Shown here in pieces: positions 3,621 through 20,779 of a stretch of 64,000 nucleotides of DNA. Every line of letters starts with the position of its first letter. The first letter of the stretch is position 1. Source of the DNA: Sacculina carcini (lineage: Eukaryota; Arthropoda; Thecostraca; Sacculinidae); the NCBI GenBank assembly GCA_916048095.2, contig OU696570.1, forward strand, positions 6,377,518 to 6,441,517. The letters are read 5' to 3'. The notes under the pieces are model-generated. The model worked only from the letters and a program-made list of their open reading frames with translations. It was not told where the DNA came from and searched no databases. The position numbers were made by a program, and so were the translations under genes.

Positions 3621-6600
3621 ATGAATATGGAGGGCGTTCCACCACCACCAGCATTCCTTCCCAGTCCAGGGCGACCGGGTATGCCATGGGTAGAATGGCG
3701 GTTCGCATTTGAGAACTATATTCTTGCATGTGGTGGGGAGGCGTTTTCTACGGCAAGAAAACGGGCAATGCTCTTGCATTGTGTCGGGACGGAGGCGCAA
3801 CGAGTCTTCAATTCACTGCCGCCACTGCAGAAGATCGAAGGGGAAGATGACTTCGCGCACGCCATTCGCAAGCTTGATTCCTTCTACAGACCGCAGGTCA
3901 ACGTCATTGCGGAAAGATACGCCTTCCGCCAGCGACGCCAAGCATCACACGAAAGTACTGCGGAGTACGTAGCAGCGCTGAGAACACTGGTAGTAAACTG
4001 CAACTTTGGCTCACTAGAAGCTGAAATGATTCGCGACATGGTTGTAGAGTCAACCATTCATCCGGCGCTACGGGAAAGGTTTCTGCAAGATCCGAAATTA
4101 ACGTTGGACTCAGTTTTGTCGCAGGCGCAAGCGTTCGAGAGCTCCAGACACGAGGCGCGCCGCATGCGACCAGAAGCCGGCGCCACAGCCGAAGTGGTAC
4201 AGCAGGTGCTACCAAAGCCACCGACGCGCACAGCTCCTCCACACCGCAGGATGGCATGCTCGCACTGCGGTCGACAACACGACTCTCCGAGAACCGACTT
4301 CTGTCCGGCCCGCACCAGCGCGTGCAATAACTGTGGCCGTCAAGGTCACTGGGCCAAAATGTGTAGGTCCAAGAAGGCTCCACCGAAGCCGAAAAACGTC
4401 AAAGAGGTGACTATTCTTACTTGCGAGCAGGTACACACCAACAAGTTGATGTGCGACGTCCTCATTCGAGTGGACAGCGGCAAAAGCGCCAACGTCGAAC
4501 TGCAAGTGGACACTGGCGCCAGCGTGTCGGTGCTGAGCCTGCCGCTGGCGAGGACGCACTTCAAGGGCTCCGCCGTGTTGCCTACAGACACCCGGTTGTT
4601 CGGCGTGGGTCGTCGGCCGATAAACGTCATCGGTACACTGCGCGCCGACGTCACGGTAAGGGGTCACACTGCATCGACGACTTTTTACGTTATCGACACC
4701 CCGTCATCGGAAGGACTATTGGGCCTCGCTACGCTGGCAGATCTGGACCTGTCTATTCACCCGGGTGGCGGCATTGTGGCGAAGGTCGCGGCAGAATCGC
4801 ACGACAAGGAACTGCCTGCAATCCCTGGGTTTTGCCATAAGATTCAGCTCAAGCCGGACGCGTCACCGGTGTCGATTCCTCTACGGCGACTGCCAATGAT
4901 GGTGAGGCCGGACGTCACGACGGAAATCAACCGACTTCTCGACGCAGGTGTGATTGAACGTACAGAAGCGTCACAATGGGTAAGCCCCATCGTGGTCGTA
5001 AAGAAAAAGTCCGGTGGAATACGCGTATGCGTAGACTTACGTGAGCCTAACCGTCAAATCGTGACGCAGATACATCCGCTTCCAACTGTCGACGAACTAC
5101 TGAACAACCTGCAGGGTAGAGTGTTCTCCAAGCTGGACCTGCAAACAGCGTACCACCAGCTCGAGCTGCATCCTGACTCACGTCACATCACGACATTTCT
5201 GACTCACGACGGGTTATTTCGCTTCAAGCGGGTACCGTTCGGATTGGCCTCAGCAGGCGCCGCGTTTCAGAAACTGCTGGACGAGCTGTTGATGGGCTTG
5301 CCTGGGACTTGCCATTACCTGGACGACATCGTGTGCTGGGGACGCGATCAAGAAGAACACGACAGGCGACTTGAGGCCGTCATGGATCGCCTGAAAGCAG
5401 CCAATGTCACCCTGAACTTGGAAAAGTCGGTGATAGCGAAGGCGCAGCTGCAGTTTTGCGGGTTCGTGGTATCCGAGTCCGGTGTGTCACCGTCACAAGA
5501 TCACATGCGCGCGATCAGCGACGCCAGAATACCAACTACTGCAAAAGAACTCCGGAGTTTTCTCGGCCTGTGTGGGTGGCTATCCAAATTCGTACAGGAG
5601 TACGCCATGAAAACTGCTCCGCTGTTTGGGCTTTTGAAAAAGAACGTCGACTTCGTGTGGACATCGGAACACACACGAGCAGTCGACGCGCTGAAACGCG
5701 CCATCGTAGAAGCCCAGCCGCTCAGCCGGTTCGACTCAGACCGGCAGACCATCGTCACATGCGACGCCAGTGAAGCAGGCGCGGGTGCTGTTTTGTCACA
5801 GGTCGGCGACGATGGCAGTGAGCACATCGTTTCTTTTTGGAGCCGCAGCTTCACGACGGCCGAGACAAAATATTCGGTGACGGAGCGGGAGACACTGGCG
5901 GCCGTGCAAGCCGTCGAGAAGTGGCGGTATTTCCTGTGGGGCCGGCACTTCACTGTTCGTACCGACCACTCAGCGCTGAAGACGATCTTGTCGGCCAAAT
6001 TCAGCGGACGCGCAGGTGCCAGAGTAGCTCGGTGGCAAGCTCGGCTTATACCGTATTCGTATACGATTGAACACATGCCAGGACACCGTATTCCCGGCGC
6101 CGATGCTCTGTCACGCCTTCCGCCGCTCACCGCGGTAAGTGTCGACCCGGAATATGACGGGGACAATGGCGAAGTCATCGCTATGCTGGAGAACTTCACC
6201 AGCATATCTCAGCAAGATGTGCGCAAAGCAGCGCGTGACGACCCAGAACTAGTGGGGTTACGCAACTCGTTGGTCAACGGATTCCCCAGGTCAGCAAGGC
6301 AGTGTGACGCGTTGACGAAGCCTTATCATGCAATTCGGCACGAACTCTCATCAGATGGCGACCTGGTGCTTCGAGCAGGATACCAGCTGATCGTGCCGTC
6401 CAGTCTCCGCCCATCATTTCTCGCACGCGCGCACTGTTCACACGACGGCATCGTAAGGACAAAACAGTACCTGCGTAGCATGTCCTGGTGGCCGGGGATG
6501 GATTCGGACGTCGAACGTCTCGTCAATGAATGTCCTCAGTGCCAGTTGAGCGACAAAGTTTTGACTACACATCACCGACCGATGCCACTTACACCAGTGA

Positions 6601-7667
6601 GTCTGCCGGCAAAACCGTGGGAGAAAATCGGCATCGACGTCGTGGGTCCAATTAACGGAGCACCGCACGACTGTCGCTTCGCTATTACATTGATTGACTA
6701 TCATTCGAAGTGGGCTGAAGTTGCGTTAACATCGGACGTCAGTACACCACAGGTCATTCGATTCTTGGACCAGATATTTTCCCGAGAAGGATATCCTGAC
6801 GCCCTGGTGTCGGATAACGGGCGCCAGTTTGTCAGCGACGAATTTACGACGTACTTACGGCACCGAGGTATTCAACACTCTCGTTCGGCGGCCTACTGGC
6901 CACGTGGCAACGGGGCGGTCGAGCGATTCAACCGCACGTTCAAGTCGTGGTTGCAAGGGTCACATCTCGGCGCTTTGAAGTCTCGCGTGCGTCAATTGTT
7001 GGCGGCCTATAGAGCTACTCCTCACTGTAGCACCGGGGAAGCACCTTCTGTGTTGCTACACGGCCGACAGATGAGGTTTTTGCTGCCGTTGACAGAGAAG
7101 CCTTCACGTCTGGACGAAGTACGGCAGAGGGTGACTCGCCAGCAACGACGCAACTGTCGCAACTACAATCGTCGTCAGGCGGCCCGAGATACGCAACTGA
7201 AGCCGGGAGATCGAGTCTGTGTACGTGTACAAGGTACCGACCACTCAGCGCTGAAGACGATCTTGCCAAAGACAGCACGCAGGTTCGGACAGCCACAGAC
7301 CATCGTGGCTCGTCGGGGATCATCGTTCCGGTTGGAGGACGGGTCCGTCAGGAATCCTGCCCATCTGGCCAAGACGGAATGCGACGCGCATCGCGACGGT
7401 GACGTGACGACGACGGACGACGTTCTTCGGTGGCCACCGGAAGATTACCTTGTTGTCACGAATGGAGACGCGGACGACAGGCACGCCGATGATGACAGAC
7501 GACGACAGGCCGACGCCGGGTCCGCCGAGGACGCGTCGACGGATGCCACCGGTGCGGCCGAAATCATAGAGCCGCCGCAGCCAGCGCCAGATCTTCCGCC
7601 ATCATCGCGAGGACGCATCCGCCGACGCCCCCGTAGATTCAACGATTATGTGATGTCAGATATATAG
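3621..7667 (+). CDS. Gypsy-1 Gag-Pol polyprotein
   Basis: One 1348-residue frame with all modules of a Ty3/gypsy element. A capsid-like gag region is followed by zinc knuckles ending CNNCGRQGHWAKMC (about residue 233-246). Then come an aspartic protease (VDTGAS, near 297), reverse transcriptase (YLDD near 565), RNase H (TCDASEAGAG near 713), an integrase zinc region (HCSHDG near 938, CPQCQ) and the catalytic core (D in GIDVVG, D in VSDNG, E in AVERFN). No stop or frameshift interrupts it, so Gag and Pol are fused without recoding. A 32-bp segment of the RNase H region is duplicated into the integrase tail (7234-7265). Start: first ATG after the leader. Confidence 0.96.
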   Translation: MNMEGVPPPPAFLPSPGRPGMPWVEWRFAFENYILACGGEAFSTARKRAMLLHCVGTEAQRVFNSLPPLQKIEGEDDFAHAIRKLDSFYRPQVNVIAERYAFRQRRQASHESTAEYVAALRTLVVNCNFGSLEAEMIRDMVVESTIHPALRERFLQDPKLTLDSVLSQAQAFESSRHEARRMRPEAGATAEVVQQVLPKPPTRTAPPHRRMACSHCGRQHDSPRTDFCPARTSACNNCGRQGHWAKMCRSKKAPPKPKNVKEVTILTCEQVHTNKLMCDVLIRVDSGKSANVELQVDTGASVSVLSLPLARTHFKGSAVLPTDTRLFGVGRRPINVIGTLRADVTVRGHTASTTFYVIDTPSSEGLLGLATLADLDLSIHPGGGIVAKVAAESHDKELPAIPGFCHKIQLKPDASPVSIPLRRLPMMVRPDVTTEINRLLDAGVIERTEASQWVSPIVVVKKKSGGIRVCVDLREPNRQIVTQIHPLPTVDELLNNLQGRVFSKLDLQTAYHQLELHPDSRHITTFLTHDGLFRFKRVPFGLASAGAAFQKLLDELLMGLPGTCHYLDDIVCWGRDQEEHDRRLEAVMDRLKAANVTLNLEKSVIAKAQLQFCGFVVSESGVSPSQDHMRAISDARIPTTAKELRSFLGLCGWLSKFVQEYAMKTAPLFGLLKKNVDFVWTSEHTRAVDALKRAIVEAQPLSRFDSDRQTIVTCDASEAGAGAVLSQVGDDGSEHIVSFWSRSFTTAETKYSVTERETLAAVQAVEKWRYFLWGRHFTVRTDHSALKTILSAKFSGRAGARVARWQARLIPYSYTIEHMPGHRIPGADALSRLPPLTAVSVDPEYDGDNGEVIAMLENFTSISQQDVRKAARDDPELVGLRNSLVNGFPRSARQCDALTKPYHAIRHELSSDGDLVLRAGYQLIVPSSLRPSFLARAHCSHDGIVRTKQYLRSMSWWPGMDSDVERLVNECPQCQLSDKVLTTHHRPMPLTPVSLPAKPWEKIGIDVVGPINGAPHDCRFAITLIDYHSKWAEVALTSDVSTPQVIRFLDQIFSREGYPDALVSDNGRQFVSDEFTTYLRHRGIQHSRSAAYWPRGNGAVERFNRTFKSWLQGSHLGALKSRVRQLLAAYRATPHCSTGEAPSVLLHGRQMRFLLPLTEKPSRLDEVRQRVTRQQRRNCRNYNRRQAARDTQLKPGDRVCVRVQGTDHSALKTILPKTARRFGQPQTIVARRGSSFRLEDGSVRNPAHLAKTECDAHRDGDVTTTDDVLRWPPEDYLVVTNGDADDRHADDDRRRQADAGSAEDASTDATGAAEIIEPPQPAPDLPPSSRGRIRRRPRRFNDYVMSDI

Positions 7668-8802: not shown

Positions 8803-9227
8803 CATGGTGTGCGAGACTAATACTTCATTCTTCGGAGAAAATGTTGTCTTCTACCATTGTTCCACTTCATATTTTAGAGAGAGTGTCTTGTGTTTATTGT
8901 ATTTGGCGTTTGCGTTGGCGTCTGCGTACTTTTATAATGCTTGTGAAGCTTGTAGTTTGTAGCGTTAATGTTACTATTGGGCAATTATCTAGACAGGGTG
9001 TCCTCTGTCTTTGAAAAGGGATGGCATTTATGATATTGCGCTACAATTGAGACCAACGTGCGGCAAACTTGGGTGTCAGATCTGCTGTTTATGCGATGCA
9101 CCGTTGAAGCGTTGGTATTCGCATTATTTGTTGGTTTACTTATCGTTGTATTATTTCTTCTTGTATTATTCCATGTATTCATTTGAGTTGTGTTGTTTCA
9201 GAAATATATTGCATTGATCGGCAAACC
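8803..9227. other. No recognisable feature
   Basis: Between the gypsy relic and the LINE remnants I see no gene, repeat or regulatory motif that can be supported. Confidence 0.5.
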
Positions 9228-11225
9228 CATTTTGGGATAATAAAACGACACTCACACTTCAACCGCTCTTTCTCCATTGTTGGCCCTCGAATTTATAACT
9301 TACTTCCCCCTTCGTTGCGTAGCGTGACAAATTTGTCACTATTCAAGCGAAAATGCAAACATTACTTTTTTGAAAAATGTTTCACAAGGGTTTCTAATAA
9401 TGACCAAATGTCTTTTTTCTGGAAGTACGTATCGTCAAAAACCAGGACAAAATCCAAAATAGCTGACCTATACAAGGAAGATGGAAGACTGGAGAAAACA
9501 TCGAATGATGAAGACAAGGCAAAAGTGCTGGCAAAAAAATTCTCTGAGGTGTTTACGGCGGAACCAGAGGGAGAAATGCCGCAGCCAGTGCTTAGGGATG
9601 TGCCACATCTGAATCAAATTAGGATAACTCCAGACGTGATCAACAAAGTTATCCAGAAGTTGAAAAGAAATAAATCCCCTGGGCCGGACGGAATCCATCC
9701 GAGGATCATCAAGGAAATGGCTGATGAACTACTGACTCCGCTTAACATTATATTCAATAGCTCGTTGGAGGAAGGCGTGGTACCAAAGGAATGTCATATC
9801 GCTCATGTCACACCTATATTTAAAAAGGTCAACAAATGTGACCCTGGGAACTACAGGCCTGTCAGTTTAACGAGTGTATTCAGCAAAGTTATGGAGTCCA
9901 TCGTGAGAGAGGAAATAATAACACACATGAAGACACATAACTTATTCAGTAGCCGCCAGTTCGGGTTCATATCTGGCAGATCTGTGGTTCTCCAGCTGAT
10001 TCATGTGCTGGACAAGTGGACAGAAACCATGGATGAAGGCAAGACCACAGATGTTATATATTGTGACTTTAAGAAAGCATTCGATAAGGTACCTCACAGA
10101 AGACTTATTTCAAAGGTTCGCAGCTATGGAATTGAAGGCAAGGTGCTACAGTGGGTCAAAAGCTTCCTGACGGGGAGAAAACAGCGGGTGATAGTCGGCG
10201 GCAATGCTTCTGAGTGGCACAAGGTCAACAGCGGGGTACCTCAAGGTTCAGTGCTTGGCCCACTGCTCTTCGTGATATTTATCAACGATCTACCAGACGT
10301 AATGAAGCATGGCAGTGACATTTACCTCTATACTGATGATACTAAGTTGTTTAGGAAGATGGAGGACAGTGACGACTGTAGCAGGCTGCAGGAGGACTTG
10401 GATGAATTGCGAAAATGGTCGGAGATATGGATGCTCCATTTCCACCCGGACAAGAGCAAGCACATGAGGATTGGCAGGACACAATTTCAAAACGAGCATG
10501 ATTATATTATGTACAGCAGGATCTCGACTTCTGATACCGAAAAAGACATCGGCGTGGTTATTGACAACAAATTGCATTTCTCTGAACATCTAGCCGAAAA
10601 AGTCAATAAGGCAAATAAAATTTTAGGAATCATCAGGAGGACTTTTGTCCATCTAGATCTGAATATATTCAAGGCGCTGTATAATGCTCTTGTGAGACCC
10701 CATCTTGAGTACGCCAACCAGATTTGGTGCCCACACTTGGTCAAGGATGTGGAAATGATCGAAAACGTCCAGCGTCGTGCAACGAAAATGGTACCGCAGT
10801 TGAAAGACCTGCCGTATGAAGACCGACTGAGGAAGCTGGAACTACCAACATTGGCGTACAGAAGATCCAGAGGAGACCAAATTGAGATATTTAAGATCAT
10901 CACGCACAAATACGATGAAGACTGCTCGGAAGGAATTTTTAACATGAGGGGCGAAGGAACTACCAGAGGAAAATCCAAGAAGATGTATAAGACTCGTCCA
11001 AGACTTAACGTCATAAAATATTCCTTTTCCAACCGGGTAGTAAATAATTGGAACAATTTGCCCGAGTGGGTGGTGAATGCGGAAACAGTAATTCAGTTAG
11101 AATCACGACTATACAGTGCATGGAAAGGCCAGGCACATTTTTACAATTATAGAGCGCAAATAACCGCGGAGCACGGCCAACCATTGAACGTCGATCAGGA
11201 TACTGAGCTGGAGTCACAGGCATAA
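9183..11225 (+). CDS. LINE-A ORF2 fragment (reverse transcriptase), chimeric N-terminus
   Basis: A 680-residue open frame. The first ~75 residues belong to another LINE's tail. From about 9405 it encodes a CR1/jockey-group reverse transcriptase: NKSPGPDGIHPR, YRPVSLTSVFSKVMES, DFKKAFDKVPH, SGVPQGSVLGPLLF, then YTDDTKLF (tat act gat gat at 10329-10340). A C-terminal region with RPHLEYANQIWCP and FSNRVVNNWNNLPEWV follows. The active-site motif is YTDD where the family normally has YADD or FADD. No apurinic endonuclease remains, so the copy is dead despite the open frame. Confidence 0.85.
   Translation: MSCVVSEIYCIDRQTHFGIIKRHSHFNRSFSIVGPRIYNLLPPSLRSVTNLSLFKRKCKHYFFEKCFTRVSNNDQMSFFWKYVSSKTRTKSKIADLYKEDGRLEKTSNDEDKAKVLAKKFSEVFTAEPEGEMPQPVLRDVPHLNQIRITPDVINKVIQKLKRNKSPGPDGIHPRIIKEMADELLTPLNIIFNSSLEEGVVPKECHIAHVTPIFKKVNKCDPGNYRPVSLTSVFSKVMESIVREEIITHMKTHNLFSSRQFGFISGRSVVLQLIHVLDKWTETMDEGKTTDVIYCDFKKAFDKVPHRRLISKVRSYGIEGKVLQWVKSFLTGRKQRVIVGGNASEWHKVNSGVPQGSVLGPLLFVIFINDLPDVMKHGSDIYLYTDDTKLFRKMEDSDDCSRLQEDLDELRKWSEIWMLHFHPDKSKHMRIGRTQFQNEHDYIMYSRISTSDTEKDIGVVIDNKLHFSEHLAEKVNKANKILGIIRRTFVHLDLNIFKALYNALVRPHLEYANQIWCPHLVKDVEMIENVQRRATKMVPQLKDLPYEDRLRKLELPTLAYRRSRGDQIEIFKIITHKYDEDCSEGIFNMRGEGTTRGKSKKMYKTRPRLNVIKYSFSNRVVNNWNNLPEWVVNAETVIQLESRLYSAWKGQAHFYNYRAQITAEHGQPLNVDQDTELESQA
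9228..9405 (+). pseudogene. 3' coding tail of a LINE, target of LINE-A
   Basis: Encodes the terminal motif of many jockey/CR1-type ORF2 proteins (FSIVGPRIYNLLPPSLR followed by LFKRKCKHYFF). It ends where the 5'-truncated LINE-A begins and is fused in frame to it by chance, so the long frame starting at 9183 is a chimera of two retrotransposons. Confidence 0.7.
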
Positions 11226-11352
11226 CTGCCTCTTCCAGAAGGTCAACTGCGAGTAACTGTGAGTATGACTTTCATTGTTGCGTCTTACGTCTTATGTGGT
11301 TTACGTAGTGCTTTTCTGCTTGTGAGTGTGTTTGTGTGTGATTGAGAGTGAG

Positions 11353-11373
11353 TTTTTTTTTTGTTTTTTTTTT
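11353..11373 (-). other. Poly(A) tail of the RLE element
   Basis: On the plus strand two T10 runs separated by one G. On the element's own strand this is an interrupted poly(A) tail directly after the 3' UTR. It fixes the 3' end and the orientation of the insertion. Confidence 0.85.
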
Positions 11374-11409
11374 GTGTGCATATGTATTGTTCATATTACG
11401 TAAAAACTA

Positions 11410-11700
11410 TCACAACAAGACACAGGCAGCGTTGCCGCGCATGATGGCCAGACTAACTCGCTGAATTAGCCAGGCAGTTTCACGCTTCTCGCCTGTGCGC
11501 TCTGTGATCTTTCGACCGATGTGCTTGCACAGTGTCTCGCATGCTGGTCCCAGAGCACCGCTGGTCTCCACCGCTACTGGCACGAAGTGGTACCGGTCCG
11601 TCAGCGATGCGTATCGCTGGCGCTTGCGTTGTTGTGCTGCTAGGGCTGCTGCGCCGGCGTTGATGGCGCAGTTCAGCGTGTGTGTGGTGCTGAACGTGTT
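11410..11700 (-). pseudogene. RLE element: C-terminal half of the nuclease after a nonsense codon
   Basis: After the TGA at 11701-11703 the ORF2 frame stays open for 96 codons to a second TGA at 11410-11412. The stretch contains NAGAAALAAQQRKRQRY, YHFVPVAVETSGALGPA and VSLAIMRGNAACVLL, the expected remainder of the PD-(D/E)XK-like domain, including the acidic VAVET strand. The stop replaces what in related proteins is a basic residue, and CGA to TGA is the simplest explanation. This single change inactivates the nuclease unless the stop is read through. Confidence 0.8.
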
Positions 11701-13980
11701 TCAGCAGGTGGCGTCCCAGACAAGGCTTTTGCCGCTCGTGAAAGGGTATACGGTTATCCCGTCCGGGCGGCGTCCGTCTCCCCTGTCCAGGCCTCGTGGT
11801 TCCAGCACCGCGCCGATCCCAGCTGCCGCCAAACCGCGATACACAGTGTCGTTGAGCGCCGTGTGCCTTGGAATTCGTCCCGCGCTTTGTTGACATGACA
11901 ACGCATGATGCCCCCATTTGTCTGACATGGCACCGCATCGGAATCTGTGGGGTTGTTGGACGGGCGAGCCGATACGCAACGCCACGCCGACACGCACCAC
12001 ATCGTCTGGCAGAAGAAGGCCCAGGCTGGCCACCGGAACCGCGTGCAACCATGCTCCACTGTGTGATGTTGCCGCTGCAAGAATGCGTGCCCGCTCTATT
12101 TGGTTGGCGGTGGACAACAAGTTCAGCTGCCGCATCTTGGAGGCCTGTCGGTCCAGGTTACGCTGGGTAATTGTCTCGTCTGAGCTCCAATTCGGGCACT
12201 GCTCTGCGACGTATTGCTCCAAGGCGGCCACCAGAGCTCCCGGTCTGTCGACGCTCTCGCGTCCAATGATTCGACTTACCAGGTATCTGGTGGACTCCAA
12301 TGAGGCCACAAACGCGGGCAGTGCGACGTCCGCCATGCGTCGAGAGCCAATCCCACCCAAGCCCACCGGTAGGGAGGCTTGTGTCCAGCTGGAGTTGGTC
12401 ATGCTGACATTGCAGCTCTGGCATATTGCCGCTCGCAGAGTGTCATCGATCGATTTCAGCTGGGTGGAGGCCGTATGCACCGGCGCTGCTCGCATAAGGT
12501 ATGTCGCCCTGGGTACCGATGAGTATCGGCTCAGAAAAAACAGTGTCACATGGCTTTGCAGGCCAGCCGATCTCTCGCGCAGTAGGTTAGTGGCTTCTGC
12601 AATTTTGGTCAGTGCGAAATCTATGCCCCCGTGCATCAGCGGAGCACCGAGCAGGGTCAGCTCGGACAAAGGAATTACCTTAGCTTGACTGAGCGGGTCG
12701 CTATCAGCCTGGATCGCTCCACAGTTGCTGAGCCTGCATACCTCGCACTTGGCGCTGTTAACTTCGAGGCCGATTGACCTCAGCAGGGGCACTATTTTAT
12801 TAATGTCGTTTCGGACACTGATGGCCGGGCCGCCGAGTGTGGCGTCGTCCAGATACCACGCATTCAGTGGCGACTGGCAGCTACGGGCCACGGGATCCAC
12901 CGCCAAGGCGAACAGCAGGGGGCCTAGTGGGTCGCCTTGTTGGACCCCCGTGCATGACCATATCTTGGTTTGTCCAAGGTACAACGGAGTCGGATGTCCG
13001 TATGCTTGGTAAACAAGCTGAACGGCTGCCGGGAACCGGCGGCGCACTTCCTGCAAGACGGCTCGTCTGCTGACAGTATTAAAAGCGTTTTGCAGGTCGA
13101 GCTTGAAAATTATGTGTTCCGGCGAGTCGATATGCTCCGTTGCGTATTCTCTTGTGGCATGCACCGCTGCTTCGCAGCCCATGGGGGTGGCAACTCCCAG
13201 CTGCACTGGACGTAGCAGCGGAGTGACTGACGCTGCCATGCGGGATGCCACCAATTTGCTGGCGAGTCTGCGCAGGGTGCTGCCGACAGCAATTGGCCTG
13301 ACACCGCCAGACTTTTTCCTCACGGCAATTAGTCTGGCTGTAAAAAACCCACTCCTCGAGAAATCTGGGATGTTGCCAGCTATAGCGGTGTTGCACAGGG
13401 CTGTGAGAGCTGTCAGCAAGTGCTGACCCGCCTCTGCTGTTTTGGGCGACACCAGCTGTCTCAGGTGCATGGGTCTGATGCCATCGAGTCCTCCCGATGA
13501 GCCCTTAGGCAAGGTGTTGATGGCCTGGCGCACCTCGTTCTCATCCACGATCATGGCTGGCGGCACGTCGGAAAGCAAGTCAGCAGGCAGCTCATCAGCC
13601 GTATCGGGGTGTTTATCTTGTATGATCGCGGCGATGTCTGCGGTTGGTGGAATGACGGTGTCAGAAGAACTCAGCAAACGAAGTGCTCCTCGGATGTCGC
13701 CGTCGGCACATTTTGTGTTCACGCGACGAGACAGGGCGCTGCATGACGAGGTTGGAGAACGTGTATCAGACCCTCCGGATCTAGTCATCTGACTTGTCGG
13801 TGCTGTTGGTTGATTGCTCATTGGACCGGTGCGGGCGTAGGACAGCAAGTGCCACCAGGCGCGGAAAGATCTCTGGTCGATGGCTTCCTTGATAAGGTGT
13901 GCCAACTCAGAAGCGACTCGGTGTCTTAATCGGCGTGGCACATGTTGGCGCACGGAGGCCTGTCGGCTGAGTGCAGCCAA
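11701..13980 (-). CDS. RLE element ORF2: reverse transcriptase and start of nuclease
   Basis: 759 residues from the first Met; the frame is open further upstream to 14043. The N-terminal helical region is followed by RT motifs SSGGLDGIRPMHLRQL (about 161-176), GGVRPIAVGSTLRRL, FKLDLQNAFNTVSRR (about 292-306), GVQQGDPLGPLLFAL (about 345-359) and WYLDDATLGG (about 375-384). Downstream come the CCHC-like CGAMSDKWGHHALSC, GRIPRHTALND and RRPDG...LVWDAT, the first acidic motifs of a PD-(D/E)XK-like nuclease. The frame ends at a premature TGA. It is in the -1 frame relative to ORF1 and overlaps it by 118 bp. No canonical slippery heptamer is in phase, so either a 1-nt indel near the AAACCCC run (about 14000-14010) or separate initiation is likely. 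Confidence 0.88.
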   Translation of the reverse strand: MAALSRQASVRQHVPRRLRHRVASELAHLIKEAIDQRSFRAWWHLLSYARTGPMSNQPTAPTSQMTRSGGSDTRSPTSSCSALSRRVNTKCADGDIRGALRLLSSSDTVIPPTADIAAIIQDKHPDTADELPADLLSDVPPAMIVDENEVRQAINTLPKGSSGGLDGIRPMHLRQLVSPKTAEAGQHLLTALTALCNTAIAGNIPDFSRSGFFTARLIAVRKKSGGVRPIAVGSTLRRLASKLVASRMAASVTPLLRPVQLGVATPMGCEAAVHATREYATEHIDSPEHIIFKLDLQNAFNTVSRRAVLQEVRRRFPAAVQLVYQAYGHPTPLYLGQTKIWSCTGVQQGDPLGPLLFALAVDPVARSCQSPLNAWYLDDATLGGPAISVRNDINKIVPLLRSIGLEVNSAKCEVCRLSNCGAIQADSDPLSQAKVIPLSELTLLGAPLMHGGIDFALTKIAEATNLLRERSAGLQSHVTLFFLSRYSSVPRATYLMRAAPVHTASTQLKSIDDTLRAAICQSCNVSMTNSSWTQASLPVGLGGIGSRRMADVALPAFVASLESTRYLVSRIIGRESVDRPGALVAALEQYVAEQCPNWSSDETITQRNLDRQASKMRQLNLLSTANQIERARILAAATSHSGAWLHAVPVASLGLLLPDDVVRVGVALRIGSPVQQPHRFRCGAMSDKWGHHALSCQQSAGRIPRHTALNDTVYRGLAAAGIGAVLEPRGLDRGDGRRPDGITVYPFTSGKSLVWDATC

Positions 13981-14660
13981 GGCGTCAGCAATGTTCGAGG
14001 GGTTTCTGGACCCATCTCTTCCGCCGGTCCGTTTATCGCGTCTTCATTGGCTTCGGCCTCGAGGCAGCCGTCGCAGCACCATGACTGCAGTGAGTCTGCC
14101 TGCCGACGCGTCAGTCCAGCACAGCTCAAATGAAAACTTTGCGAGCAAGCAGTGCAGTTGATGCTCCGCTTTCTGCTGTTGGTCAGAGAACAGACGCTGC
14201 AAGCTGCGGTTTCATCCCTCGCGATGTGAGAAACGCTTCCGCCGGGCTGTTGTTCACGCACCTGGTAGAGCATTCCGGCTGCGATGCACTTGTCAAGTCG
14301 GCAGGGGGCACATGGTCGTGAACCGTGTGACACGTCGCAGTGTCCGCCGTTCTGACACGTCCTGGAAGAACGATCGTCGCTGTGATGTCGCCCGAAAAAA
14401 GCTTGACATGCTCGGCAAACTACAGCCCCGAATCGAAGGTGGGTCTGTCCATGCAAGTCGCAAACAACGCACGAAATCATGACAGAAGTGTTTATGCCGG
14501 TGTGTACGCCATATACTCGTCGCACGGTATGGCCGTCTTCGCAGTGATTGATCGTGACAGCTTTCGCTGCCAGGGGTATAAACACACAAGGTCGGTCGCA
14601 GGCAGGTCGCAGAAGACACGGTACAGCACAACCTTCCTCGACGACGGTAGAACAAGACAA
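13926..14660 (-). CDS. RLE element ORF1: nuclear-receptor C4 finger plus PHD finger
   Basis: 244 residues. Residues 64-130 (14271-14471) match the nuclear hormone receptor DNA-binding domain with all eight zinc cysteines: C64-x2-C67, C82-x2-C85 followed by QAFFGR, then C102-x5-C108-x8-C117-x2-C120 followed by RLDKCIAAGM. The P-box reads CRACQA, close to the CRACA-type boxes of nematode receptors, and HLRFGAVVCRACQAFF has the family's recognition-helix layout. Residues 154-199 (14064-14201) form a C4HC3 PHD finger: C154, C157, C169, C172, H177, C180 and the WCCDGC end. An N-terminal Cys-rich segment is unassigned. The ORF overlaps ORF2 and shares the element's strand and poly(A) tail, so it is part of the transposon, not a host gene. 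A role in target or RNA binding is inference. Confidence 0.88.
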   Translation of the reverse strand: MSCSTVVEEGCAVPCLLRPACDRPCVFIPLAAKAVTINHCEDGHTVRRVYGVHTGINTSVMISCVVCDLHGQTHLRFGAVVCRACQAFFGRHHSDDRSSRTCQNGGHCDVSHGSRPCAPCRLDKCIAAGMLYQVREQQPGGSVSHIARDETAACSVCSLTNSRKRSINCTACSQSFHLSCAGLTRRQADSLQSWCCDGCLEAEANEDAINGPAEEMGPETPRTLLTPWLHSADRPPCANMCHAD

Positions 14661-15376
14661 GAATATAAAAAATTGACTCGAAATTATTCGTTTCGCGAGT
14701 CGCTAATCAGAATAAAGCACGTTTTTTTCACCTAACTTAATTTTATCACAATTGCAACTCAGAATCGTCGGAAATTCAACAAATATAACGGAAATTAGCA
14801 CAATTTTGCACGCACCTACAGCTTCAGTGGTGGCATCACGATTGCAGCAGTCAATCATCCAATGACGAGCACACTCATTGAAGCAAACATCAGCAAAAAT
14901 ATTCTAGAAAACTATCAAAATTACCCTAAAAACTTCAATTATTATGGAGCACAAAAATAAACGTTCACTCGCTAACACAGATTCACGACAACTGAGAGAG
15001 AGTGAGAGAGAGAGAGAGAGTGAGTTTGTGAGTGTGTTTATGTGTGTTTGTGTTTGATTTTGTGTGTGTTGTGTTCGTTTGTGTGTGTTTCGTATGTTTC
15101 TTGTGTCAATTTCCTTTGTTCATATATCAGTGTAATTTAATTTGATTGGTGTGCTTGAATTACGTGTTGTGGCATTGCTATTCAGTGTATCTGTGGGCGA
15201 TGTTGATGTTTTATCCGTTCGTATGTGTTTGTATGTGTGTCTGATGTAACTGATTGTATGTCGTATCTATTTGGATGTTGTATCCGTCTGTATGTGTGTA
15301 TGTGTGTATGTGCGCTTTAGAAATATCTGTGTGTAAAGCGCTTAAGAAGTGTTCAATAAACTGAACTGAAAAAACT

Positions 15377-17944: not shown

Positions 17945-20779
17945 TCAATCAGTAACATAATCATCTAGCCACGCCGGGGTCTTCCGTTGTCTTGTTGAGC
18001 GCCGAGGCAATTCCACATCGTCGTGCTCTGCATCTGTAGGAACGTGGCGTTCGTCATGAGCGTCTCTTGCCGGCCGCACATCCAATATATGTCGCGGCAT
18101 CCCGTCTACAGAAATGTTGTTTGGCGAATTGATGTCTGTTACTCTACCGCGCGTCCACTGCGTTGTACATTTAGGAACGGGTGGCTTCACCCAAACTTCG
18201 TCCCCTACGCTGATGGAAGACTGAGTGGACTCGCGTCTCGGCGGCATTTCTAACGATGGATTTCTCCACTCGTATGCATGGACGTGTTTATGTGGTACCG
18301 AATTGTGAGTCAAGCCCTCGCGTGGCGTCATATTGTACCAAAACACTGCCGACAACGGTGTCACTTGAGCTCTCTCTGCCAAAGCTTTGATGGTACGATG
18401 GTGACGCTCTACAATGCCGTTACCACTTGGGCGATATGCAGCTCTGAAATAGGGTTGTATCTTCCACCTTTCCATCAGTCTTCTCATTTGCTCTGATCTA
18501 AACACCATACCATTGTCCATGAGCAGCTCGAGAACTGGACCTCTTTCCCTGAATATCTCATCGAGAATGGCACACACCAGCTCTGCGTTCTCAGCACGCA
18601 ACTCTCGCCAGATGGCGAACCGACCTGGACCGCAGTCCACAATTGACAAATATGTTTGCTGGCGGTAATGAGTCACGTCAATGGCCAATCTTGACCATGA
18701 CTTGCTCACATTCAGATGTCCGGACGTGTGCTGGACTGGTGCTGGATCGATTGATTGGCATCGAACACAGCATTGAACAACACGTTGTGTTTGGTCTCGT
18801 GTCACTCTTGGATCCTCTTGTCGCGCTAAATAGAGTGTTCTATCCACACCCATATGATGTAATTCATGGAGTTCAGCGAGTCTTTCCGATGTCATAGCAC
18901 ATACACTAGAACTCGACGCGGTGCAATGATTCTCTTCTTCACTTTCTACGGGCATTGCCAGCCATTCTTTCTTGACGCGGGTCAGCTCGTCTGCTTTATT
19001 TACCGTGGTGGGAACTCGCACAATCTTTAATTTCAGCTCGAGCTCCTCCACCAAGTCACACAGTATACCCAACCGTCGCTTTATCAGAAGCTCAGCTGCA
19101 CCTTTTGTCTTGATTCTTCTCTCCTTATTTAAGGCTGCGTTGACCCAGCCCAATACCGTTGCTGAATCAGTGCGTACTTCCACATCGGTCAAATTCCACT
19201 TGACAGCCAAATTCAATCCTTTCAATACCCCTTCCAGTTCAGCCACATTGATGTGGTGAACATCGGACTCCTTCCGCTGCCACGCTGCATCCTCAACAAT
19301 ATGACCACCAATCTCCAGCGCCACGCCAACGGCCAAGTTGCTAGCGTCACACCACACCACCCCCTTCTTTGTTTTTGGCACATTCCACACACCCCCTACA
19401 GGGTCACCACGCTTTACTCTATCTAACACTTCTCGAATCATTTTCACAACATTGTCACCGACCAGTCTGTCCCAATGTCCGCCATGCGCTCTGCGTTTAA
19501 TGAAACTGCAGGCCAGTCTCAACCACCTCGCCACCGGGTAATGGCCTACCAATTTTCCGCACAACGAGAACAATTCCCTTTTTGTTAATTTATCAACCGA
19601 CTGTGGAACTTCATTTCCTCTTTTGTAAACAAGTGCACCATTTCTGTTTCTGAACACTTTCAAGCCCAGCACAGCACCTTCCTCAATAGGCACTGGCTGT
19701 TTTGCCACCAATCCATATTTCTGTAGATGTTGCACCACTGCCTTCGCTGAAATTATGGCCTCATTTACGATAATATCGTCGATGTATGAGTCGGTAGCAC
19801 GCTCAATGACATCTGACTGCTGCAGCACCGTTCGCACAATTTTTGTCATTACTCTAGGGGCTGAACATAACCCAAAACCCATTCTCGTCAGAGTGTAGAC
19901 TTTGCCGCGGTATTTGACCAACTGATATTTCCATAATTTCTTTGACATGTGAATTTGCAGATATGCCGTCTTCAAATCTACCACAGACGCAGGACCATCG
20001 ATGCACCTCCATTTCCTCAATTTTTCATTACATATATCGATGAATTCATCACCCGTATGACTACTCACATATTCATTTAATTCTCGAAAATCGAGTACTG
20101 GGCGAACTTTTCTCTTCGTCGGTTGCACCACTGCAAGCAACGGTAATACACCCGACTTTGTGTTGCCTGTCCACGGCACCAGAATCCCTTCTGCTATCCA
20201 ACGTTTCACTTCGGTGTCAAACTCGTGACGTGTTTCTGACTTTATTGTTTGATTGTAGCAGCCGATAGAGTTATTTAACACTGGGGAGTCTTCCTTCACA
20301 AACCATTCTACCTCCCATTTTTCTCCATCGAACGACGCGAAAAAATCTTTATCGTTGATACTCAATTGTGTACTCTCATTTTTCTTACCATGGTATGTTA
20401 TATTGCCTGGTACTGGTGTCTCAGCACCCACAGCAACACAACTGCAATCCCCAAATTTGACACCATTATTTGTCACAAATACACCACCAAGACAATCAAT
20501 CACATCCATCCCTAATACACAATCTATGTCGTTCACTATCTTATCAACTACCATCGCACGCGCTCTCACGCTTCTGCCTTCCACTGTCAAGTTGACCCAG
20601 GTCTTCCCTCGGCATTGCACCTGCCTCCCGTCAAACGCACTTATGAAACCACCTGCCTCATAATTCTTAACAATCTTCGTCGTCACGACAACTGTTGAAC
20701 AGCCGGTATCCACTAATGCCCGAACATTTCTGCCTGCAACTAAAACATTGACCAGAGGCAGTCTGCCAGGCTGCGCCAT
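17945..20779 (-). CDS. Young micro-LTR element Pol (PR-RT-RH-IN)
   Basis: 944 residues without a break. Order: aspartic protease (ALVDTGCSTVVV), reverse transcriptase (VRPVLDFRELNEYV, VVDLKTAYLQI, LTRMGFGLCSAPRVM, SYIDDIIV), RNase H (VVWCDASNLAVGVAL, HHINVAELEGVL), integrase zinc region (HELHHMGVDRTLYLA, CCVRCQ) and catalytic core (AIDVTH, LLMDNG, GIVERHHR). The RT-before-integrase order is of Ty3/gypsy type, although the RT has YIDD and an unusual LTRMGFGL block. Its ATG overlaps the gag stop as TGATG (20777-20781), which suggests termination-reinitiation. Confidence 0.92.
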   Translation of the reverse strand: MAQPGRLPLVNVLVAGRNVRALVDTGCSTVVVTTKIVKNYEAGGFISAFDGRQVQCRGKTWVNLTVEGRSVRARAMVVDKIVNDIDCVLGMDVIDCLGGVFVTNNGVKFGDCSCVAVGAETPVPGNITYHGKKNESTQLSINDKDFFASFDGEKWEVEWFVKEDSPVLNNSIGCYNQTIKSETRHEFDTEVKRWIAEGILVPWTGNTKSGVLPLLAVVQPTKRKVRPVLDFRELNEYVSSHTGDEFIDICNEKLRKWRCIDGPASVVDLKTAYLQIHMSKKLWKYQLVKYRGKVYTLTRMGFGLCSAPRVMTKIVRTVLQQSDVIERATDSYIDDIIVNEAIISAKAVVQHLQKYGLVAKQPVPIEEGAVLGLKVFRNRNGALVYKRGNEVPQSVDKLTKRELFSLCGKLVGHYPVARWLRLACSFIKRRAHGGHWDRLVGDNVVKMIREVLDRVKRGDPVGGVWNVPKTKKGVVWCDASNLAVGVALEIGGHIVEDAAWQRKESDVHHINVAELEGVLKGLNLAVKWNLTDVEVRTDSATVLGWVNAALNKERRIKTKGAAELLIKRRLGILCDLVEELELKLKIVRVPTTVNKADELTRVKKEWLAMPVESEEENHCTASSSSVCAMTSERLAELHELHHMGVDRTLYLARQEDPRVTRDQTQRVVQCCVRCQSIDPAPVQHTSGHLNVSKSWSRLAIDVTHYRQQTYLSIVDCGPGRFAIWRELRAENAELVCAILDEIFRERGPVLELLMDNGMVFRSEQMRRLMERWKIQPYFRAAYRPSGNGIVERHHRTIKALAERAQVTPLSAVFWYNMTPREGLTHNSVPHKHVHAYEWRNPSLEMPPRRESTQSSISVGDEVWVKPPVPKCTTQWTRGRVTDINSPNNISVDGMPRHILDVRPARDAHDERHVPTDAEHDDVELPRRSTRQRKTPAWLDDYVTD

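Follow-up and report, generated by a model that had tools for sequence, protein, structure and literature searches.

Our analysis of a 64,000-nucleotide stretch of the Sacculina carcini genome (contig OU696570.1, positions 6,377,518 to 6,441,517; in what follows, the window) points to a retrotransposon whose protein begins with a DNA-binding finger of the nuclear receptor type. We consider it probable that the copy in the window (11353..14983, minus strand) is a 5'-complete but disabled, R2-like retrotransposon of the non-LTR (long terminal repeat) class with a restriction-like endonuclease (RLE), and that it belongs to a clade in which an acquired receptor finger acts as N-terminal DNA-binding module, holding the complex on its (AC)n target. 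While RLE retrotransposons and microsatellite targeting are already known, what is new is that a retrotransposon has a receptor C4 finger: in line with a preliminary description of this DNA, which knew of no non-LTR element with such a finger, we found no earlier account of one in 5.39 million open-access papers (covered mostly by titles and the beginnings of abstracts, with subscription papers, preprints and RepBase reports outside its scope). To our knowledge, receptor-type C4 fingers have been described only in animal receptors.

Finger, reverse transcriptase and endonuclease in one predicted protein

The preliminary description, made from the sequence alone, had recognised a nuclear receptor C4 finger and, after it, a PHD finger in a minus-strand frame at 13926..14660 (244 amino acids from a TTG), followed on the same strand by a non-LTR reverse transcriptase with a PD-(D/E)XK-like nuclease. 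All of this holds up. The translation is as quoted, and the Pfam comparison it had proposed as a check finds both fingers significant: zf-C4 at residues 63-130 (E 5.2e-10, 40.1 bits against a cut-off of 21.1) and PHD at residues 154-199 (PF00628, E 2.5e-6, 27.9 bits against a cut-off of 24). The C4 finger, with its helix CRACQAFFGR, lies at 14265..14474 and the PHD finger, which Foldseek relates to the PHD fingers of AL, BPTF and Pygo, at 14064..14201. The next minus-strand frame (11701-13980) contains the reverse transcriptase domain (12733..13323; RVT_1, PF00078, E 1.5e-19) with the motif YLDDA at 12841-12856, and a CCHC-type knuckle (11893..11937) ahead of the endonuclease, recognised by comparison with the near-identical copy L009 and carrying Phe in place of the first Cys. 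The region of the predicted RLE (11410..11772) retains the motif RRPDG..WDATC and was assigned through Foldseek matches of a full-length relative, P0002, to R2 proteins. All these parts are on the minus strand, as is the A-rich 3' tail (11353..11379), inside which the element ends; its 5' end was placed at about 14983, where homology with the copies L012 and L013 starts.

Rather than a separate ORF1, as previously described, the finger frame and the reverse transcriptase frame are one coding region. Dozens of other copies keep open frames of about 1030 amino acids, and a separate open reading frame (ORF) or a chance neighbour is ruled out because the window's two ORFs form a single frame in these relatives. 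By sequence comparison, the finger frame is the N-terminus of a predicted protein of about 1030 amino acids in the order zf-C4, PHD, reverse transcriptase, CCHC and RLE. In the window copy, the frame changes near 13.99 kb, at the point up to which close relatives can be matched (residue 224), and an in-frame TGA at 11701-11703 interrupts the endonuclease part. As start codon, we prefer the ATG at 14478..14480 (minus strand; MISCVVCDL...) over the TTG at 14660 put forward before, because the family representatives we examined have an ATG a few residues ahead of the first cysteine.

In the 264-Mb genome, at least 150 places match the finger protein (the best 150 of 259 candidates scored), and in a sample from these, frames of at least 1000 amino acids hold 46 of 52 finger matches, with four of the 46 frames (L022-L025) exceeding 1800 amino acids and containing N runs. 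Pfam scans of eight copies from seven families gave zf-C4 above cut-off in all eight, a PHD match in all eight (above cut-off in seven; L019 has 21.2 bits) and RVT_1 in all seven copies scanned at full length; at E values up to 0.01, the eight proteins yielded only zf-C4, PHD (including PHD_2) and RVT_1, hence no ligand-binding domain. When the endonuclease served as query (the best 150 of 1005 candidates scored), 18 matches lay in frames of at least 900 amino acids. Among the 16 in frames of at least 1000 amino acids, the finger is upstream in 13 and the remaining three have an N run at the finger position; the other two, of 904 and 921 amino acids, start inside the PHD finger and are 5'-truncated. 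Reverse transcriptase copies lacking the finger, which the preliminary description had named as grounds for abandoning its proposal, did not appear among these: the finger is present in 13 of 13 readable full-length endonuclease matches.

As to class, the best PDB sequence match of the reverse transcriptase part is to R2 proteins (E 1.2e-12). A full-length model of P0002, built from 44 aligned sequences (mean predicted local distance difference test, pLDDT, 89.0; predicted template modelling score 0.81), has R2 retrotransposon proteins as its top seven PDB structural matches (E 4.4e-21 to 1.8e-16), followed by ORF2p of LINE-1 (long interspersed nuclear element 1). In all 44 aligned relatives, the endonuclease has the same RPD and later D; among relatives longer than 600 amino acids, pattern searches find the endonuclease motif in 94 of 118 and the CCHC knuckle in 90 of 118. 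Multiple dispersed copies, an A-rich 3' end, 5' truncation and target specificity are all present. Judged from sequence and model, the non-LTR reverse transcriptase, the C-terminal PD-(D/E)xK RLE (with predicted catalysis) and the CCHC knuckle are those of an RLE-type non-LTR retrotransposon, its likeness to R2 being measured against the R2 proteins in PDB only. In common with R2 (R2Bm, R2Tg and R2Pm structures), it unites an N-terminal DNA-binding part, reverse transcriptase and RLE within a single protein. It differs in its target, which is (AC)n instead of 28S ribosomal DNA, and in its N-terminus, where a receptor C4 finger and a PHD finger stand in place of the zinc fingers and Myb domain reported for R2 in PMC7998251.

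Several further observations concern these and other repeats. A tandem array at G000:C1:3075406-3175318, which holds 23 of the best 150 endonuclease matches, consists of near-identical 3' ends of the window's family, often spaced by about 3.76 kb, and is derived from the element. At G000:C22:6176869-6184734 (L015, L016), one strand carries four 5' pieces of L014-family elements, each with the finger, at a repeat distance of about 2.2 to 2.9 kb. Elements of the finger-bearing kind account for many of the 147 zf-C4 matches in this genome. The window also has, named by eye, a Gypsy-like polyprotein frame (3621-7667, plus strand), another non-LTR reverse transcriptase frame (9183-11225, plus strand) and an LTR-type polyprotein frame (17945-20779, minus strand). 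Of 14 contig ends inspected, the two of contig 9 (L090, L095) carry the arthropod-type telomere repeat (TTAGG)n and the start of contig 7 a degenerate form; four ends are N and seven have none. A search with COX1 brought up no mitochondrial contig.

Receptor ancestry and probable gain of the finger

The best PDB sequence matches of the finger ORF are receptor DNA-binding domains (FXR 7.4e-7, AR 8.9e-7, VDR 9.5e-7), and the modelled finger resembles such domains too. We aligned 33 element fingers, leaving out matches below 40 bits, host receptors, repeat fetches of the same place and nine fingers shorter than 62 amino acids. The nine receptor cysteines are complete in 26 of the 33, the window's finger among them, and cysteines and helix Arg are conserved across element families. 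With nuclear receptors (PR, AR, GR, FXR, VDR), the element thus has in common the C4 double finger, the nine cysteines, the recognition helix and the CRxxxCxxxGM end. In contrast to receptors, its finger is fused to PHD, reverse transcriptase and RLE, with no ligand-binding domain found in the eight scanned proteins, and the first two P-box residues are RA, PA, PS, RS, AS or SS, whereas nine compared receptors have EG, ES or GS. On this sequence evidence, the element finger shares ancestry with receptor DNA-binding domains. Its neighbour has the C4HC3 zinc pattern of a PHD finger above the Pfam cut-off and may contact histones; since the rows of the VIA-align comparison span mainly residues 1-78 of the finger-PHD model, identification of the PHD finger rests on Pfam and Foldseek.

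Pairs of copies within a family are 93-99% identical over about 2-3.6 kb. The ratio of nonsynonymous to synonymous change (dN/dS) in the finger is 0.13-0.18 in pairs of the L020 and L026 families, 0.63 in L017/L018 (few changes) and undefined in L009/L010, while five between-family pairs with unsaturated synonymous sites give 0.26-0.55. Individually these values are weak, yet all are below one where computable, as might be expected of a finger under constraint.

Relatives were sought among 5.8 billion proteins, where 7996 candidates sharing most words led to 130 matches, 120 of them listed. Among the matches listed, P0002 (57% identity over 99% of the query) has finger and reverse transcriptase in one protein together with a Pfam PHD, and P0007 has a C4 finger and reverse transcriptase in one protein, its PHD counterpart being no more than a PHD-like pattern of cysteines. 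Used as queries, the N-terminal regions of the two retrieved nothing but themselves. Arthropod and other relatives (P0012, P0013, P0031, P0036, P0044) belong to the same reverse transcriptase/RLE family at 40-49% identity. Some of these relatives retain the PHD finger and some have a ubiquitin carboxyl-terminal hydrolase or 2A-like peptides; a C4 finger was not found in these five by profile. The hydrolase is marked in 13 of the 120 listed relatives including P0036, where it sits after the reverse transcriptase, and P0044. These two Amphibalanus amphitrite proteins carry the database name deubiquitinase despite their reverse transcriptase. Peptides of the 2A-like type (D[VI]ExNPGP) occur in seven of the 120 (P0017, P0024, P0026, P0027, P0037, P0039, P0114).

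In a tree of reverse transcriptase plus endonuclease with 68 rows (eight genome copies, the window's family being represented by L009, and those 60 of the 120 relatives that had the anchor and sufficient length), a single clade with local support of 100 unites the ten finger rows with six others. The six without finger have short predicted N-termini, and one of them (P0003) begins MRRCLDAGM, which by eye resembles the end of a C4 finger. Among the rows next to this clade are proteins that have a PHD finger but gave no C4 finger by profile. Since the finger rows share one reverse transcriptase clade beside PHD-bearing rows without C4, the simplest reading of these sequences is a single gain of C4 within a PHD-bearing RLE line, albeit the character table counts two C4 changes owing to the six short rows. 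The PHD finger looks older than C4 because it also occurs outside the finger clade. Hence, the earlier notion of a finger captured from a receptor stands as to shared ancestry and a probable gain.

Insertion into (AC)n microsatellites

Both flanks of the window copy are CA-rich on the element (minus) strand, moderately so on the 3' side (11253..11352; seven CACA and no TGTG in 100 bp) and more clearly on the 5' side (14984..15090; ten CACA and no TGTG in the nearest 100 bp), where a (CT)n run adjoins the element. We extended this to 47 3' flanks, made up of all 31 of one fetched set, 15 of the 20 loci of another and the window copy, with L015, L016, L023, L024 and L025 left out as array pieces or for N runs or lack of a 3' untranslated region (UTR). 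On the element strand, CACA outnumbers TGTG in 44 of the 47, with two having fewer and one a tie (p 3e-11 for strand), and in one of the former two (L058) an evident (CA)n was skipped by the script. At least eight CACA per 100 bp occur in 36 of 47 flanks compared to 22 of 3742 background windows, all from the 64-kb window. The nine counted 5' flanks, each from the L020 family, are all CA-rich in the same orientation.

For nine insertions, both flanks were available; they have far more rare 12-mers in common within a locus than across loci (diagonal 169, a value reached in 0 of 20000 permutations). The own locus is the row maximum in six of nine (one tied at one word) and three share none; a few shared 12-mers include A runs of the tail. 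Rare words common to both flanks of the same locus indicate that the CA repeat is older than the insertion. Outside these counts, we read by eye five 3' and five 5' flanks in the family whose finger is most receptor-like: all five 3' ends enter CA repeats, one of them (L106) from within the coding region, and the 5' flanks of L107 and L110 are CA-rich. Insertion is (AC)n-specific, nearly always in one orientation and into a repeat present beforehand, with L072, L074 and L023 as exceptions. At G000:C36:1812000-1816000 (L029), an L020-type element starts right after the A-rich tail and short CA tract of an L030-type copy, an arrangement that suggests successive insertion into one CA repeat.

Microsatellite-directed RLE elements have precedents in Togen (fish, NeSL-related, (TG)n), Dong (R4/Dong clade, (TAA)n) and some HERO elements, as described in PMC4640811 and PMC7998251; according to the latter, Dong lacks N-terminal zinc fingers and has a Myb-like domain that has diverged, in contrast to the C4 finger here. 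The preliminary description had raised the prospect of homing to receptor-controlled loci through hormone-response elements. We see no support for this, as simple repeats make up nearly every flank we read (other than L074, L023 and L112), no scan of flanks for response elements having been run.

How the target may be read

In the scenario we favour, the protein would bind an (AC)n tract, its RLE would by analogy with R2 nick the (GT)n strand, and cDNA synthesis would be primed at the A-rich 3' end of the element RNA in an R2-like target-primed reverse transcription. The C4 finger would replace the N-terminal zinc-finger/Myb modules of R2 and keep the complex on target DNA, with a chromatin contact that the PHD finger may contribute. 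Steroid half-sites have ACA/TGT in common with (AC)n. Together with conservation of the finger and the part an R2-type N-terminus takes in site choice, this is why we entertain that the C4 finger itself reads (AC)n, a proposal on which our judgement is evenly poised. A stricter receptor code appears doubtful to us; here, a helix like that of steroid receptors, with a small residue in P-box position 2 and Arg in the invariant helix position, would read TGT/ACA steps and repeated half-sites would fix the strand cut by the endonuclease.

Several of our data weigh against the favoured scenario. The third P-box position differs among families (V 11, I 8, E 7, A 6, Q 1; n=33 fingers) while the (AC)n target stays constant, which counts against a simple P-box code. 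Foldseek alone gave the finger-PHD model no match below E 0.001, and residues 31-60 of this model, within the finger, have a pLDDT of only 61 to 69. The flank counts lean on few families, with 29 of the 47 3' flanks from L020, eight from L026 and six from the window's family (our own grouping), besides the 5' flanks all being L020. TGTG follows the A tract in L072, the tied L074 has no CA repeat and the uncounted L023 no 3' UTR; in the most receptor-like family, the near-identical 5' flanks L108/L109 contain just a short stretch of CA, and in L112 no clear one is seen. Finally, genome queries with P0012 and P0056 (scoring the best 44 of 1817 and the best 47 of 1619 candidates, respectively) found no finger-less close relative, the main rows showing 37-50% identity and no closer PHD-only family; many of these places are finger places, and in about eight (e.g. 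C3:836173, C29:5294381, C30:6646199) the finger was not looked for.

In an alternative reading, the RLE/CCHC end or the reverse transcriptase picks (AC)n and the C4 finger binds DNA without choosing sites, binds element RNA or shields the copy from silencing. Togen and Dong insert into microsatellites, and Dong, as reported in PMC4640811 and PMC7998251, does so with no N-terminal zinc fingers, so that the choice of (AC)n could lie with the RLE or another part of the protein; so too, families with different P-boxes share one target, and the PHD finger, found outside the finger clade as well, looks older than C4. To our minds this alternative is unlikely, given that R2 site choice is directed by the N-terminal Myb domain and accompanying zinc fingers (as reported in PMC7998251), that cysteines and helix Arg are retained across families and that finger dN/dS stays below one where computable.

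Less plausible still is that the CA repeats belong to the element, as a 3' microsatellite tail with slippage, rather than to its target. Many LINEs terminate in simple repeats, the A-rich tails here contain scattered C and three of nine two-flank loci share no rare word. Yet CA repeats flank both sides with locus-specific words common to the flanks of one insertion, a short CA tract is split by the element in L107 and L103, and L009 has the hexamer AAACAC on either side, albeit some distance off at the 5' end; this two-sidedness makes the idea improbable. As for the C4 fold being an independently evolved zinc finger that merely resembles the receptor finger, element fingers do group on their own with long branches in the finger tree and some families reach just 26 to 30 bits with zf-C4. 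Against this, one family scores 64.6 to 68.5 bits with receptor spacing, a CxxCxxFFxR helix and the CRxxxCxxxGM end, and P0007 matches at E 4.4e-15, so we regard convergence as ruled out to all practical purposes.

For annotation, our findings call for caution, as many of the 147 zf-C4 matches in this genome could be miscounted as nuclear receptors by automatic pipelines. Moreover, the (AC)n-directed enzyme family is new for comparison with R2 in target-primed insertion, and an element family with such varied accessory modules (PHD, ubiquitin protease, 2A) offers a natural experiment on how the N-terminal DNA-binding part changes in RLE retrotransposons. A receptor-type C4 domain here resides in, and multiplies with, a selfish element; should the stricter receptor code hold, the DNA-binding domain of a nuclear receptor would now serve a retrotransposon in recognising its target.

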